Shown here: positions 3,584-28,931 of the stretch, piece by piece
Layout of the letters: each line of letters begins with the position of its first letter
How positions within the stretch are numbered: the first letter of the stretch is position 1
Assembly (NCBI GenBank): GCA_003563055.1
Contig: PWSY01000052.1
Location: 1-46,748 of the forward strand
From: Anaerolineaceae bacterium
GTDB lineage: Bacteria > Chloroflexota > Anaerolineae > Anaerolineales > Anaerolineaceae
DNA: 46,748 nt
Direction: 5' to 3'
Made by a program: the position numbers and the translations under genes
Notes under the pieces: model-generated
Told to the model about the DNA's origin: nothing
The model's database searches: none
The model's input: only the letters and a program-made list of their open reading frames with translations

Positions 3584-5443
3584 TTAATCACCATTAGGCT
3601 CAGGAATTCCCTCTGTCCCGGGCCCATACTCGAAAATCGCCTGCCAGGGTTGAAAATGGGTATAAATGGAATCAGAAAAATGGATCTGATCACCTTTGTA
3701 TACTGTTCGGGTCACCGTCACATCTGCCCCATCGGCGGAATAATCAACCTGCTTGATTACACCTTTGGTAAGCTCGGGGTTTTCGCGGTAGAGGGGCTCA
3801 GGTGCCGGGACAACGTTGGTTGGGCCGGTTGTACTCCACTCGACGGTACGCCCATCACTGGTGGAATAAAACTTCCAGGTCAGTGCAAAATTGCCCACAT
3901 AGGTCTCCATTAATAGCCAGTTCTCGGTGTCATTGGTGAATTTCAAGTCGACAATGGGCACATACACGGCTGCATCAAGCCCCGCCAGACGGGTATCGCG
4001 CGAGCCATCCGGACGCATCTCGTAGTAACCTACACGGTATGAGTGGGCATGACGCTCAACGATTGGGAATCCGGCAAAGAAAGCTGTCCGAAAAAGGGTC
4101 GTGCTCACCTGACAAACACCCCCACCCACAGCCCGGATGGTTTGCCCGCCGTAGATGATCAGCGCTTCTGCATAACCGCTGTCAAGGCTGATGTTCCCCA
4201 GGGCCTGCGCCATCGAAAAGGTCTCTCCCGGGGCAACCAGCAACCCATGAAAGCGGGCTGACGAAGCCCTGATATTCTGGACGCGGGCGGCCTCAGACCC
4301 ATAGAAATAGGTTGTCTCTTGATGAACTAGTTCTGTTATCCCTAATGCTTCACCGGTCATGTCATCGGTGACATCCGGAATGAGCGAGGTAAATTGAAGA
4401 TCGATATCATGCTGCCCAGCCATCAGTTGCGTATTGATATGCTCAACACTTGACTTAATATCGAGCTCTTGCCCGATAACCGCTGGCTCGAGCAAGTCCA
4501 ATAGCCCTGACTCATCATTGAAGATAAACCGGGAATTGACCGTTTCGATCAATAAACCAGGCGCAAGACTGCTGAGGTACATATTCATCAAATTTTCATT
4601 GATCGCGATTGTAAACCCAACCTCGTCCGTTTCGACCCCGTCCGCCCTTGTTATGACCAGCATCGAAGCCAGATCAGCAGGCGCTATGGTCCAGGTACGC
4701 GTTTCACCACCATCATTCATAGCCGAGAGGACCAGGGGCTTACTGAGTATCTGTTGTGCCAAATCTGCCTGCGGTCCTACTTCCATAATCACGGGTGCTG
4801 TTTCCGTCACAATAATCGATATCTCCCCCCCTTCCATGCGCGTCAAATAGGTCGAGATTAATGCAAGTGTGCCGTCAATGTCAACTTCACGACCTACCTG
4901 GCCGCCTTGTACAATCACTTCGGTGTTATCCAGCGCCAGGGAAGCTTCCAGCACCGATTGATCAATTTCAGCTGCGATCGACTGCAAGTAATCTAGGGCA
5001 ACCCGCTCGTCATAAATGGCGATAGGTGATAATTGAATCCCGAAAAACCAGGCACGGGCTTTCTCGATCACATTCGAAACAAACCACTCTCGCCGGCCTA
5101 CTTCAAACGCTTTCTGGGCACTGCTGGCGGGTTGCATTGAGTAGCCCAGTTCTTTGGGATGGGCTTCCCAAACCTGTTTACCAAAAGTGAAAACCAGTTT
5201 TTCTTCAGTGGCATAGCCTAAGGCTTGGGTGAGCTTCTGGTCGGTTTCTTCAAAGGTCATCCCTGACAATTCAATATCATATACATAAACACCAGGGTAA
5301 ACACGATCAGCATAAGCTGTTTCAAAACCAACCAGCACCGATAATAAAACCATACTGAATACTATCAGGCTAACCGGCAGCGCCAAAATGACCTGGATAA
5401 GGGCATGTTGTGATCCATTAATTTTCATTTCAGGTTCCATCAT
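3584..5443 (-). CDS. VanW family protein with peptidoglycan-binding-type N-terminal domain
   Basis: A 619-residue envelope protein. It has a signal or anchor segment (about 15-45), a long repeated alpha/beta region of the YoaR/PG_binding_4 type (about 60-330, including VYPGVYVYDIELSGMTFEE), then a VanW domain (about 385-510) with GETFSMAQALG, the GGGVCQVSTTLFRTAF signature and RHAHSYRVGYY. A C-terminal G5-like segment carries VTRTVYKGDQIHF. VanW domains occur beside vancomycin-resistance genes, but their biochemical role is not settled. A TATAAT lies just 12 bases before the first ATG, so either the message is nearly leaderless or the true start is the ATG at 5428. Confidence 0.9.
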   Translation of the reverse strand: MMEPEMKINGSQHALIQVILALPVSLIVFSMVLLSVLVGFETAYADRVYPGVYVYDIELSGMTFEETDQKLTQALGYATEEKLVFTFGKQVWEAHPKELGYSMQPASSAQKAFEVGRREWFVSNVIEKARAWFFGIQLSPIAIYDERVALDYLQSIAAEIDQSVLEASLALDNTEVIVQGGQVGREVDIDGTLALISTYLTRMEGGEISIIVTETAPVIMEVGPQADLAQQILSKPLVLSAMNDGGETRTWTIAPADLASMLVITRADGVETDEVGFTIAINENLMNMYLSSLAPGLLIETVNSRFIFNDESGLLDLLEPAVIGQELDIKSSVEHINTQLMAGQHDIDLQFTSLIPDVTDDMTGEALGITELVHQETTYFYGSEAARVQNIRASSARFHGLLVAPGETFSMAQALGNISLDSGYAEALIIYGGQTIRAVGGGVCQVSTTLFRTAFFAGFPIVERHAHSYRVGYYEMRPDGSRDTRLAGLDAAVYVPIVDLKFTNDTENWLLMETYVGNFALTWKFYSTSDGRTVEWSTTGPTNVVPAPEPLYRENPELTKGVIKQVDYSADGADVTVTRTVYKGDQIHFSDSIYTHFQPWQAIFEYGPGTEGIPEPNGD

Positions 5444-16849: not shown

Positions 16850-17485
16850 ATGTATATTGCTATTGAAGGTGTGATAGGCGTTGGAAAAACAACCCTGGCG
16901 CGTCTTATACAACCAATCTTTGATGCAGAACTCCTCCTAGAAATCTTTGAAGAGAACCCCTTTTTAAGTGATTTCTACAGCGACCGCGCCCGTTACGCTT
17001 TTCAGACACAAATTTTTTTCCTTCTCAGCCGATACCATCAGCAGCGAAAGGGTGTCCTGGCTGTATCATCTAAAAAGATCTGCCTAATATCCGATTATTG
17101 CTTTGAAAAAGATCGTCTATTTGCTGAGGTCAATCTCTCCGGCGATGAATTAGAGATGTACTTTAAAGTCCACGAAGCCCTGGCTGAGAAGATTGTCCAG
17201 CCAGACCTGACAGTCTACCTCCAAGCGCACACCGATGTGCTCATGCAGAGGATTGCCCAACGAGACCGGCCATATGAACGCCAGATGGATGTTAATTATA
17301 TTGACACCCTCTCCCAGACCTATGACGCACGTTATGCACACAATTCGTCCCCAAATGTGCTCGTCATCAATACCAACCAGCTGGATTATATTCGTCGTAC
17401 TGAAGACCTGGAACACATCTGCCAGCGCATTCGCCAGGCGTTGAAATTGACCCCCTTCCAGGAAAGCCTTCCTATCCATTTATAG
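16850..17485 (+). CDS. Deoxynucleoside kinase
   Basis: Phosphorylates a deoxynucleoside with ATP in nucleotide salvage. A 211-residue dNK/dGK-type P-loop protein: GVIGVGKTT (7-15), EENPFLSDFYSD, FQTQIFFLLSRYHQ, SDYCFEKDRLFA carrying the DR pair, and the lid RDRPYERQM. Base preference (dA, dG or dC) cannot be decided by eye. A GGAGCGG ribosome site lies just before ATG. The nucleotidyltransferase gene follows 21 bases later, so the two are likely one transcript. It lies next to the candidate replication origin. Confidence 0.9.
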   Translation: MYIAIEGVIGVGKTTLARLIQPIFDAELLLEIFEENPFLSDFYSDRARYAFQTQIFFLLSRYHQQRKGVLAVSSKKICLISDYCFEKDRLFAEVNLSGDELEMYFKVHEALAEKIVQPDLTVYLQAHTDVLMQRIAQRDRPYERQMDVNYIDTLSQTYDARYAHNSSPNVLVINTNQLDYIRRTEDLEHICQRIRQALKLTPFQESLPIHL

Positions 17486-17506: not shown

Positions 17507-18514
17507 ATGCGTATCACACGAGACCTTCTTCATAAGTTTGCCACCCAAACGGTGAAACAGCGAAAGCGAAGTGAACCTGACTTGCACGCCGTCTACCTGA
17601 CAGGATCACTATTAAGCAAAGCCCCCATGCTGGGTGGTACCACGGATATTGACCTGATTTTAGTCCACAAATATCAAGCGCCTGTCCACAGAGAAGTTGT
17701 CTCAATTACCCCTGAAATCTCTGTGGATATTTTTCATAAAATTAAAGATGACTACATCCAGCACAGGAAACTTCGCCACGATGCTTTTATCGGGTACCCC
17801 CTGACCTATAACCATATCCTTCTGTTTGATAGTGACCACTGGCTTGAATTCATCCAGGCAAGTGTCAGTGCAGAATTCCACCGAGCTGATAATGTGTTGG
17901 CGCGCGTGAACAATCTTTCAAGTACTGCACGTGAAAACTGGTTTTCTTTAACGCAAAGCACCCCAAAAACACATCTTGTTTGGCTGAAAGAGTATTTGGA
18001 AATCATCGTTCTAGCTGCAAATGCTGTTTCAGGCCTGATTGGCCCCCCATTAACAAACCGCCGTTTCATGCCAACTTTCAGACTACGAACAGAAGATTTG
18101 GGGGCTGAACATGTTTTTGATACATTCGTTGACTTGTTGGGGCTCTTTGAGGCAGATGGAGAAGTTATCATTAACTGGATCAACGCCTTTGAACAAGACT
18201 TGCAATTCCTTGCGGAATCAACATCCCCGCCTGTCCATCTATCTCCCTGCCGACATCCATATTATCTGGAGGCTTTCAAAGCCTTTGTTGAAACTGATAT
18301 CCCCATCCATGCAGCCTGGCCACTCTTACGCACGTGGCTCGATCTTCAGCTGGCAGTCCCACAACCTTCACCCAGCGTTACCACCTGGGCTGAGTGTTTG
18401 ACCACCCTCAATTTGACAGAGGATGTTATTCCTCAGAAAATTGAAGCACTGGATGCCTTTTTGGACATCGTTGAAGAATTAATCGAAACCTGGTCGACGA
18501 TTTACGGATATTAG
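17507..18514 (+). CDS. Nucleotidyltransferase-fold protein, function unknown
   Basis: A 335-residue protein whose first ~95 residues look like an antibiotic-type nucleotidyltransferase domain: LTGSLLSKAP (G33-S34) and TTDIDLILVH (D47, D49) give the GS...DxD metal site, and the third acidic residue is probably in ISVDIFHKI. The rest (about 100-335) is helical with no recognised domain, ending with VEELIETW. AGGGGA precedes the start. It sits downstream of the deoxynucleoside kinase, probably co-transcribed, which hints at a nucleotide-linked role but does not prove one. Its stop is only about 25 bases before the candidate origin. Confidence 0.7.
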   Translation: MRITRDLLHKFATQTVKQRKRSEPDLHAVYLTGSLLSKAPMLGGTTDIDLILVHKYQAPVHREVVSITPEISVDIFHKIKDDYIQHRKLRHDAFIGYPLTYNHILLFDSDHWLEFIQASVSAEFHRADNVLARVNNLSSTARENWFSLTQSTPKTHLVWLKEYLEIIVLAANAVSGLIGPPLTNRRFMPTFRLRTEDLGAEHVFDTFVDLLGLFEADGEVIINWINAFEQDLQFLAESTSPPVHLSPCRHPYYLEAFKAFVETDIPIHAAWPLLRTWLDLQLAVPQPSPSVTTWAECLTTLNLTEDVIPQKIEALDAFLDIVEELIETWSTIYGY

Positions 18515-18539
18515 GGTTGCCCTTATTTACCAGTTACTT

Positions 18540-18960
18540 AACCAAGCTCACTTGTATTTCTGTTCTTTCCCTGCATACCTGTGGATAACTTCCCCAAAAC
18601 TGGGGATAACTTATACGAAATGTGGATAACTAATGCCTCCAGTATGAAAAACTGAGGGGGATTCTGGAAAACCTCTGGAGAAAAAACCTGGAAAACCACC
18701 TGTTTCGCCCAAATACAGTTTCTCCTAGACTTATGCACTTTATGATAAACAACCCCATGTGGAGAGAAAGGAACAGCAAATCTCCTTATATACCAGGGTC
18801 TTTAATTCACCTTGCCGGATATAGCCTATTTATAATGGTGATTTTAGGAACTATTTTCTTTTATCCACATTTCCACAGTCCCTACGACTAAGACTACTTA
18901 AAATATCTATCCAAATATCAATGGAGAAAAAGTATTAAACAATCCCGACCTTGCTACATT
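18540..18960. other. Candidate chromosomal replication origin (oriC)
   Basis: Non-coding sequence with DnaA boxes and AT-rich DNA. Perfect TGTGGATAA boxes lie at 18580-18588 and 18621-18629 (minus sense), a one-mismatch box TGGGGATAA at 18601-18609, and a perfect TTATCCACA at 18861-18869 overlapped at its last base by ATTTCCACA at 18869-18877. Weaker matches are at 18663-18671, 18674-18682 and 18687-18695. The stretch around 18780-18945 is AT-rich and could unwind. Plus-strand composition changes from C>G to G>C across this point in genes on both strands. Two parS sites lie 5.4 kb to the right and dnaN 9 kb away. No dnaA gene is visible here. Confidence 0.75.
18580..18629 (-). promoter_or_regulatory. 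Three phased DnaA boxes
   Basis: The boxes start at 18580, 18601 and 18621, spaced 21 and 20 bp, which is two helical turns, so all three face the same side of the helix and point the same way. Two are perfect TTATCCACA (minus strand); the middle one differs by one base. This is the usual nucleation layout for DnaA filament assembly. Confidence 0.8.
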
Positions 18961-19022
18961 AGAGGGTAACCTTTGTCCACCAGGCTGCATCTAAACAGAA
19001 AAATTAACAGGAGCGAAAATTA

Positions 19023-19364
19023 ATGCATATGCTTCGAGATTCCTGTTCGGTATTTATCTCCCTTGTGGCCAAAATGGACACACAGGTCGTTGGACATATC
19101 TTGTTTACGCCTGTTTGCCTCCGCCTTAAAGAGGGCAATGAGATAAACGGGATGGGATTGGGGCCCTTAGCTGTCCTGCCAGAGTTTCAAAATAAGGGTA
19201 TCGGATCTGCGCTGTGTCAGGAGGGACTGCGGCGACTAGCATCTGATGGGTATCCCTTTGTTATCGTTTTGGGACATCCAAGTTAATACCCCCGTTTTGG
19301 TTTTACTAGGGCCAGCGCTCATGGGGTCACCTGCGTATATGACGATGTTTTTTTCGCCACCTGA
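19023..19364 (+). pseudogene. Decayed GNAT N-acetyltransferase
   Basis: A remnant of a COG3153-type GNAT enzyme. LRDSCSVFISLVAKMD, VVGHILFTPV, MGLGPLAVLPEFQNKGIGSA (the acetyl-CoA pyrophosphate loop) and PFVIVLGHP are all typical. About 40 N-terminal residues are missing: an AGGAG site leads to an ATG that joins directly to the LRDSC region. An in-frame TAA at 19284-19286 interrupts LGHPS; after it the same frame continues YPRFGFTRASAHGV, the expected sequence, to TGA at 19362-19364. The C-terminal strands are gone. It therefore has an N-terminal deletion, a nonsense codon and a truncated end. Confidence 0.8.
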
Positions 19365-24325: not shown

Positions 24326-24341
24326 TGTTTCACGTGAAACA
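24326..24341. other. parS centromere site 1
   Basis: TGTTTCACGTGAAACA, a perfect 16-bp palindrome identical to the bacterial ParB/Spo0J consensus. It lies in the intergenic region upstream of rtcA. parS sites load ParB, and usually lie near oriC. Confidence 0.93.
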
Positions 24342-24423: not shown

Positions 24424-24439
24424 TGTTTCACGTGAAACA
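24424..24439. other. parS centromere site 2
   Basis: A second perfect TGTTTCACGTGAAACA, 98 bp from the first, in the same non-coding stretch. The pairing of two perfect sites makes chance very unlikely. No parA or parB gene is in the window. Confidence 0.93.
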
Positions 24440-27533: not shown

Positions 27534-28667
27534 TCAGCCGATATGCATGGGCATGATAATGTGCTTGAAGTGAGAGTCCCCCTGGGGATGGATTACCCCG
27601 GGGGTGTTGGCGGCGTTTGTCTCTAGCCATACATTGTCTGATTTGATGACCTCTAAAACTTCGCGCAGAAAACGCACATTAAATGCCACCAGAAGGGGGA
27701 CCCCATCTACCGAAGCGTCAACGAGCACTTCTGAAGTGCCGGTTTGTTCGGAGTTAGCGGAAATCTCTAACGTGCCGGGGCTGGACTCGTCGGTCTCTGG
27801 GATGATGTTCAATCGGGCGACATTTGTGCCTTCGCGAGCGATGATTTCGGCCTGCTTACAAGCTTTGAGAAGGCCTGCTGTTGAGAGTAAGGTGTGGGTT
27901 TTGAAGTTCTGTGGGATAATAGCGCGGTAATCTGGGAAGTTCCCCTCAATTAATTGAGAAGCTAATTCCATCTCATCCATATGGAAGATAACCTGGCCCC
28001 GATCAGGTGGGAACGTCATGATGACGGTGTCATCTCCGCTGCCTAAGATTCGCGATAGTTCTACCAGGGCGCGAGCTGGGATGATAGCTTCAATTGGACG
28101 CGAGACGGCGTTGGGGATGTCGTCATCTCGGATGGAGATTCGGAAACCGTCGGTGGCAGCCATAGTGATGTGGTTGTCTTCCAGTTTGATCAAAACACCG
28201 GTGAGAACAGGGCGTGCCTCATCGGTAGAAGCTGCAAAAGACACCTGTTGTACCATTTCCTTAAAATTGATGACATTCAGGGGAACACCCTCTTCAAGAC
28301 TTGGTTCCGGGATGGGGGGGAATTCCTCCGCATCAATACCTTTGATATTAGTTTCTGAGCTCCCGCAGCGTACATTCAAGGTTTGAGTGCTGTTATCCAG
28401 GGTTAACACGACCTGTTCGGCGGGCAAGTTGCTGACCAGGTCAGTAAAGGTGCGGGCAGGGACGGTAATGGCCCCCTCTCCTTCTATTCGCGCGCCGATC
28501 CACGAAGTAATTCCCAGTTCAAGATTGGTAGCCGAAAGGCGCAGACGGCCTTGATCGGTTTTTACAAGGACATTTGATAGGACAGGCAAGGTGCTGCGAG
28601 GGGAAACGGCTCTCGAGACTATGCTGACACTGTGGGCAAGTTCTTGTTGTTTGACATTAACTTTCAT
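27534..28667 (-). CDS. dnaN: DNA polymerase III beta clamp
   Basis: Ring-forming processivity factor for the replicative polymerase. The 377 residues have three repeated clamp domains: MKVNVKQQELAHSVSIVSRA at the start, EEFPPIPE near 113-120 in the first domain boundary, ATDGFRIS in the second, FPPDRGQ and EGNFPDYRAIIP in the third, and the end HFKHIIMPMHIG, where the family's C-terminal MPM(R/K) groove residues lie. The ribosome site AGGAGAGGTG is strong. It is transcribed towards the candidate origin, that is head-on to replication if that origin is correct. A dedicated terminator follows. Confidence 0.97.
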   Translation of the reverse strand: MKVNVKQQELAHSVSIVSRAVSPRSTLPVLSNVLVKTDQGRLRLSATNLELGITSWIGARIEGEGAITVPARTFTDLVSNLPAEQVVLTLDNSTQTLNVRCGSSETNIKGIDAEEFPPIPEPSLEEGVPLNVINFKEMVQQVSFAASTDEARPVLTGVLIKLEDNHITMAATDGFRISIRDDDIPNAVSRPIEAIIPARALVELSRILGSGDDTVIMTFPPDRGQVIFHMDEMELASQLIEGNFPDYRAIIPQNFKTHTLLSTAGLLKACKQAEIIAREGTNVARLNIIPETDESSPGTLEISANSEQTGTSEVLVDASVDGVPLLVAFNVRFLREVLEVIKSDNVWLETNAANTPGVIHPQGDSHFKHIIMPMHIG

Positions 28668-28824: not shown

Positions 28825-28931
28825 TGTCCGGGTGGGACCGGCGCGGCGGAGCCCTGCAAACCCCGTCAGGTCCGAGAGGAAGCAGCGGTAAGTGGGTATC
28901 TCCGGGTGCCGTCGGCAATCCTACCCGGGCA
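28825..28931 (+). ncRNA. ffs: Signal recognition particle RNA, small bacterial type
   Basis: About 107 nt. The apical domain contains CGTCAGGTCCGAGAGGAAGC followed by AGC, the conserved Ffh-binding asymmetric loop region with a GNRA-like tip. The ends TGTCCGGGTGGGA and TCCTACCCGGGCA pair to close the helix, and seven T (28932-28938) follow as a terminator. The RNA pairs with Ffh and FtsY for co-translational membrane targeting. It lacks the Alu domain of the long Firmicutes form. Confidence 0.93.

Follow-up and report, generated by a model that had tools for sequence, protein, structure and literature searches.

In Escherichia coli and in cyanobacteria, oriC is separate from dnaA. The same separation is described for some species in an excerpt of published work (PMC10225481). 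In Bacillus subtilis, according to excerpts of the structural study, DnaA captures the first two bases of each DnaA-trio, and its Asn187 meets the amino group of the middle base (PMC10721633). Cytosine in the middle of a trio supports strand separation in vitro about as well as adenine and growth in vivo better than guanine or thymine, and the authors of that study suggest that homologues might read a range of sequences (PMC10721633). Similar excerpts give A as the middle base in the trios of Helicobacter pylori and Thermotoga maritima (PMC8235120, PMC10316083), a survey from 2021 required 3'-NAN-5', with trios lacking the middle A suspected or allowed for (PMC8287927), and a 2026 review still gives NAN as the trio (PMC13220808). 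Among the matches listed, judged by title and the start of the abstract, we found no report of an Anaerolineae oriC or of natural C trios.

We analysed a window of 46,748 nucleotides, which is an entire contig of a 2.47-Mb draft genome in 256 contigs (75.5% complete). Judging from its sequence and that of its relatives, the stretch 18580-18940 is very probably the site at which chromosome replication starts (oriC) in a little-known anaerobe, a Brevefilum-like member of the Anaerolineaceae (Chloroflexota), and it is remote from dnaA; among the named kinase loci, those nearest to the locus of the window come from Brevefilum sp. and Anaerolineaceae. A preliminary description had listed this stretch as a candidate oriC away from dnaA, and that reading is supported by the skew switch, the conserved box cluster, and the remote dnaA. 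An oriC apart from dnaA is already a known arrangement, and the new part is the mixed A/C trios. The features are collected in Table 1.

Table 1. Features of the origin region and its surroundings, with the facing elements of family f39. Positions refer to the window unless a genome and contig are given.
Feature	Position	Strand	Basis or remark
Deoxynucleoside kinase (PF01712), conserved left neighbour	16850..17485	+	
335-aa ORF without Pfam hit, second gene of the kinase operon	17507..18514	+	
Exact DnaA boxes TTATCCACA	18580, 18621, 18861	-, -, +	Box scan
Box triple, co-oriented (exact, one-mismatch, exact), 21/20 bp, each about two helical turns	18580..18629	-	
Exact DnaA box, first box of the unwinding element	18861..18869	+	Conserved in genus alignment
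Second, weaker DnaA box TTTCCACA, tandem	18870..18877	+	Sequence and genus alignment
GC-rich spacer of four bases	18878..18881	+	GTCC in window; GCCC commonest in genus
Five DnaA-trios 3'-GAT-GCT-GAT-TCT-GAT-5'	18882..18896	-	Plus strand CTA CGA CTA AGA CTA
AT-rich stretch into which unwinding presumably continues	18897..18940	.	AT-rich in genus alignment too
Degenerate inverted DnaA box facing the trios	18920..18928	-	Three mismatches in window
Cumulative GC-skew minimum of the window	19125	.	0/10000 permutations of 1-kb blocks as deep
Perfect parS-type 16-mer	24326..24341	.	
Second perfect parS-type 16-mer	24424..24439	.	
f39 facing elements (L303)	G446:C5:96491-96590		
f39 facing elements (L304)	G453:C58:8191-8290		
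f39 facing elements (L305)	G460:C1:5481199-5481298		
f39 facing elements (L306)	G526:C2:3553499-3553598		
f39 facing elements (L307)	G648:C1:2761274-2761373		

The preliminary description had counted three perfect and two one-mismatch DnaA boxes in non-coding DNA. The three exact boxes are present, together with one one-mismatch box at 18601 on the minus strand; the second one-mismatch box is absent, and the next-best box is a two-mismatch one that abuts 18861-18869. The phasing of 20-21 bp given in the same description agrees with the measured spacings of 21 and 20 bp, and no ORF of at least 100 aa overlaps 18515-19000. The box cluster in 18580-18940, in non-coding DNA, is far beyond chance. 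With two points per exact box and one per one-mismatch box in a 300-bp span, it scores 7, compared to a maximum of 4 in 300 Markov-1 simulations of the window. Counted singly, boxes with at most one mismatch are in modest excess in the window (19 versus 12.6 expected, a number reached in 4 of 100 shuffles). The segment 18900-18949, at 72% A+T, is the highest among the 50-base segments given over 18500-19100.

The GC skew flips its sign within a few hundred bases at the locus. Four hand counts of G and C in the preliminary description are exact, and its claim that the skew changes in genes of both orientations holds for 33 genes hand-picked from the ORF list: the plus-strand skew on the left is -0.066 in four plus-strand genes and -0.091 in 11 minus-strand genes, and on the right it is +0.102 in nine plus-strand genes and +0.052 in nine minus-strand genes. 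Because the organism's own genome is a fragmented draft, the chromosome-wide skew check was run by proxy in the congener G009, using 40 sampled stretches over a 2.717-Mb contig, and there the skew turns from minus to plus only once, at the box triple homologous to that of the window. In G009 every sample between 758 kb and the stretch that ends at 2120800 has a negative skew and every other sample a positive one, and the only plus-to-minus switch, between 702 and 758 kb, is roughly half a chromosome away from the minus-to-plus one. At closer range, the local skew minimum of G009 is at 2121780, with the triple at 2120894 and the box/trio element at 2121180, 600 bp off the minimum.

The locus is at the chromosome skew minimum in the window and in the sampled G009, and in G344 it is only within 20-45 kb of it. 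The 4.145-Mb contig of G344 has broadly two switches, with the minus-to-plus one between 632 and 657 kb and the element at 677 kb; the 20 kb expected to be negative has a skew of +0.044, so the switch is 20-45 kb off the element, and two samples of the plus arm are slightly negative (-0.006 and -0.004). In G202 the skew flips locally at the element and is noisy over the genome, and the skew of the complete relative G031 places the origin no more precisely than about 0.18-0.32 Mb, its dnaA being at 0.385 Mb. Among the 36 relatives with at least 3 kb on both sides, the skew is lower on the left in 31, going from minus to plus in 24, and is not lower in five. The single-contig genome G047 (4.40 Mb) shows no clear skew in 19 sampled stretches, compared to the strong skew in the genus of the window.

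The locus does not have the common arrangement in which oriC adjoins dnaA. The dnaA gene is on a separate contig in the own genome, and in G009 it is at 2.4405 Mb, 319 kb from the element. An origin at the own dnaA was considered and rejected: the 20 kb around the gene contain no exact box and 11 scattered one-mismatch boxes, and no skew minimum lies at the gene. The neighbours named in the preliminary description were recovered as well. The operon of the PF01712 kinase lies on the left and a broken GNAT gene on the right, neither being dnaA; dnaN is at 27534-28667, 8.6 kb off and without dnaA; and two perfect parS-type 16-mers lie 5.4 kb to the right of the element. Two parS are also present in G009, at 2129597 and 2129654. 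The 335-aa ORF of the kinase operon, which separates the kinase from the origin, has a tblastn match in all 110 kinase loci searched, including 32 without a box cluster, so the operon either predates the origin's residence at this site or does not depend on it. Further features of the surroundings are the GNAT acetyltransferase remnant itself (19023-19286, with an early stop, immediately right of the origin), a small SRP RNA at 28830-28929 adjoining dnaN, and a 619-aa protein encoded at 3584-5443 with a VanW-like stretch that scores below NCBI cut-offs.

The cluster is conserved in relatives in both position and sequence. A kinase query matches in 55 of 61 genomes, some of them with only weaker paralogues, and the congener G001 gives no kinase match. 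Conservation in near relatives, a check proposed in the preliminary description, is evident within the genus, where 13 of the 14 other loci carry three exact boxes with 21/20 spacing at nearly the same distance downstream of the kinase. No boxes stand by the kinase in the congener locus L018 (G008), which, lacking the triple, was left out of the genus alignment and the trio counts. When 12 genomes were searched whole, the exact triple was found in seven, once in six of them and twice in G027; the own genome has no exact-pattern triple because its middle box has one mismatch. A 21/20 triple with at most one mismatch per box, anywhere in the locus, is present in 38 of 80 named relatives. For 78 of these 80, at least 1.8 kb downstream of the kinase was available, and a cluster was sought within 6.5 kb or up to the contig end. 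Such a cluster lies by the kinase in 46 of the 78, compared to 4 of 55 upstream control stretches, and 45 of the 46 clusters are 785-1673 bp downstream of the kinase, with one (Longilinea) at 5 kb. The other 32 relatives (e.g. L111, L112, L125, L134, and L179) keep the kinase/ORF operon and have no cluster beside it.

The alignment of 14 genus loci, including our own, reveals a second conserved block, which consists of a box, a weaker box, four GC-rich bases, a triplet repeat, and AT-rich DNA. At 18861-18896, the window has the parts of a Basal Unwinding System (BUS), namely DnaA boxes, a spacer within 16 bp, and trinucleotide repeats, and the box-pair pattern has a single match in the own draft genome. 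The preliminary description did not remark on this trio element (18861-18906). The genus loci were picked by the box triple and not by their trios. On the trio strand, the middle base of trio 1 is A in all 14 loci, and the middle bases of trios 2-5 are A in 28, C in 27, T in one, and G in none of 56 cases. The trios of the window and of three congeners suggested that A and C alternate strictly; this was rejected, since other congeners put C at other trios. On the kinase-gene tree of the genus, at least nine middle-base changes are needed, at least eight of them between A and C. An inverted box 22-25 bases beyond trio 5 is also found in the genus, with at most one mismatch in 11 of the 14 loci and at most two in 13, the window being the fourteenth.

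We then searched 400 genomes of the order with a pattern in which the box pair is fixed and the trios are open. The pattern gives 78 sites in 77 of the genomes (39 of 130 genera), compared to about two for a backward-pattern control. Of these sites, 59 (32 genera, 6 families) have YTR at the first trio and were kept, and the 19 without a YTR triplet at base 5 after the second box were dropped; many of the dropped sites look like chance, and a few (genus g17 and three sites of g33) could be genuine elements with a different spacing. With one site per genus, the middle bases of trios 2-5 are A in 78, C in 43, G in 6, and T in one of 128 cases, C exceeding G with p = 6e-8, and at least one C is present in 25 of the 32 genera. 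Trio 1 served to select these sites, so the set is uninformative about it. The third base is T in 113, C in 11, and A in 4 of 128, and the first base is G in 90, T in 20, A in 15, and C in 3, being variable in trios 3 and 4. The triplet regularity ceases beyond trio 5. We also re-implemented singly a published-style rule that asks for three consecutive 3'-NAN-5' trios, applied at the box pair in any register; the window fails this rule, and 25 of the 59 sites and 10 of the 32 genera pass it.

Thirteen dnaA regions (nine Bacillota and four Actinomycetota) were used as controls outside the order. Four of them gave a box pair and trios, and nine were uncounted, six having no box pair by the pattern and three having a box pair without a trio-like repeat. 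The middle bases are A A G A C in Arthrobacter and A A C C A in Nonomuraea, and the idea that the A/C rule is unique to Anaerolineales is weakened by these two Actinomycetota, both with C and one with G too. By eye, C is also seen elsewhere in the phylum: G726 and G648 have it at late trios, as do G424 and G662 when the spacer may be 3 bases long. Because C occurs mid-trio in the controls and elsewhere in the phylum, the A/C rule may be general where AT pressure is weak, as far as this small sample goes.

In f39, a large-genome family of Chloroflexota, five loci carry two box-pair/trio elements that point towards one another inside a span of about 100 bp, with an AT-rich core between them. The cumulative skew minimum of the 10-14 kb regions lies between the facing elements in all five cases, four of which belong to genus g185. 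Five further f39 regions were inspected: in L308-L310 the skew minimum lies inside a wider convergent box pair (about 330-340 bp), and L311 and L312 have no such pair. The f39 arrangement looks like a symmetric origin with an unwinding element on each strand, which is relevant to the loading of two helicases, and the inverted box facing the trios in the genus of the window is a half-symmetric version of it.

The residues that hold the trios in B. subtilis (E183, N187, I190, I193, R202, and E228, in B. subtilis numbering) are identical in the DnaA of the window organism, as aligned with 8btg. N187 is identical in all 12 DnaAs read (L001 and L034-L044), and the exceptions are residue 193, which is Val in G027 and Leu in G031, and residue 228, which is Ala in G031. 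Cytosine could serve in the middle of a trio because DnaA is proposed, in excerpts of the 2023 B. subtilis structural study, to recognise the amino group (PMC10721633). The near-invariant third T and the first base that varies in trios 3 and 4 are not as the B. subtilis structure predicts. Of the 12 DnaAs, 11 have His and one has Gln at residue 196, the position that meets the third trio base in B. subtilis, and we would guess that His196 is a new contact behind the near-invariant third T.

The sequence elements, their conservation, the skew switch, the position of dnaA, and the identity of the DnaA contact residues are direct observations, from which we infer DnaA binding, unwinding, helicase loading, base capture, and ParB binding at the locus. 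DnaA, encoded elsewhere on the chromosome, would bind the phased box triple on the left and the tandem pair at 18861-18877, and a DnaA-ATP filament would grow from this pair onto the minus strand of 18882-18896 and capture the first two bases of each of the five trios. The DnaA pocket in the order would take either of the amino-bearing bases, A or C, as the middle base of trios 2-5, with the box-proximal trio retaining adenine. The duplex would open into the AT-rich stretch, the helicase would then load, and forks would depart in both directions, giving rise to the GC-skew switch. ParB on the two parS sites may organise the new origins.

Box clusters away from dnaA in E. coli serve titration or regulation roles, and with this precedent the boxes of the window could form a site that titrates DnaA or is regulated by it (datA-like, or in a promoter region) while the origin lies elsewhere; the nucleoside kinase of the upstream operon would be a plausible DnaA target. 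We consider such a role highly improbable, since the sampled skew of G009 switches only at the locus and on the far side, a full box/spacer/trio element is present, and parS is nearby. It is more improbable still, to the point of being hardly credible, that the stretch belongs to an integrated plasmid or some other element and serves as its origin. A dead gene does adjoin it, but the same site by the same two-gene operon recurs in 45 of 78 named relatives, ordinary chromosomal genes flank it on both sides, and the skew in the congener G009 is chromosome-wide.

With the locus read as a chromosomal oriC, the trios allow a further claim. Anaerolineales, and perhaps other lineages, probably run their origins on mixed trios, 3'-N(A/C)T-5', whose initiator would read the amino group and not adenine as such; only the box-proximal trio would need A, and selection would have exchanged A and C time and again, keeping G and T out. 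The A/C pattern could instead reflect base composition, the tuning of duplex stability, or the site of another repeat-reading protein, and the regular CTA/CGA repeat with its near-invariant third base, unexplained by the B. subtilis contacts, is in keeping with such an account. Stability or composition would, however, permit G like C on the trio strand, where C is far more frequent than G. In addition, nearly all of the parsimony changes in the genus are A/C transversions and not transitions, the trios follow the box pair and 4-base spacer in the B. subtilis register, and the regularity does not extend past the fifth trio. On this evidence an origin of the pattern other than base capture appears rather unlikely, and the mixed-trio reading is the one we prefer. 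If it is true, most of these elements would escape any trio search in which A is compulsory. If the A/C pattern is functional, evolution has run the cytosine experiment in many genera, which would turn a mutant result into a recognition rule, and the pattern may help explain the 15% of predicted origins that escape the published search. A/C trios in places where well-studied bacteria have adenine offer a natural test of the initiator's grip on DNA. For a group known mostly from drafts, the candidate oriC could be of use in genome rotation, metagenome growth estimates, and replicating vectors.

Like other oriCs separate from dnaA, the locus in the window is a DnaA-box cluster at the skew minimum without an adjoining dnaA; it differs from them in that its neighbour is a kinase/orphan-ORF operon and that dnaN stands nearby without dnaA. 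The BUS of B. subtilis (boxes 6/7), as given in excerpts of the published descriptions, resembles the element of the window in its two tandem boxes, 4-base spacer, and AT-rich continuation (PMC8287927, PMC10721633), and its trio register is the same, with a first trio 3'-GAT-5' after G-C pairs (PMC10721633), whereas it has six trios compared to five in the window (PMC8235120). The dnaA-dnaN gaps of Priestia megaterium and Latilactobacillus curvatus also share the box pair, spacer, and trios with the window, whereas their middle bases on the trio strand are all A and they lie beside dnaA. Compared to the BUS of B. subtilis, the element of the window is not beside dnaA, has A or C in place of A in the middle of its trios, has a near-invariant third T, and has a variable first base in trios 3 and 4, and residue 196 is His in the DnaA of the window organism and Asn in that of B. 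subtilis.
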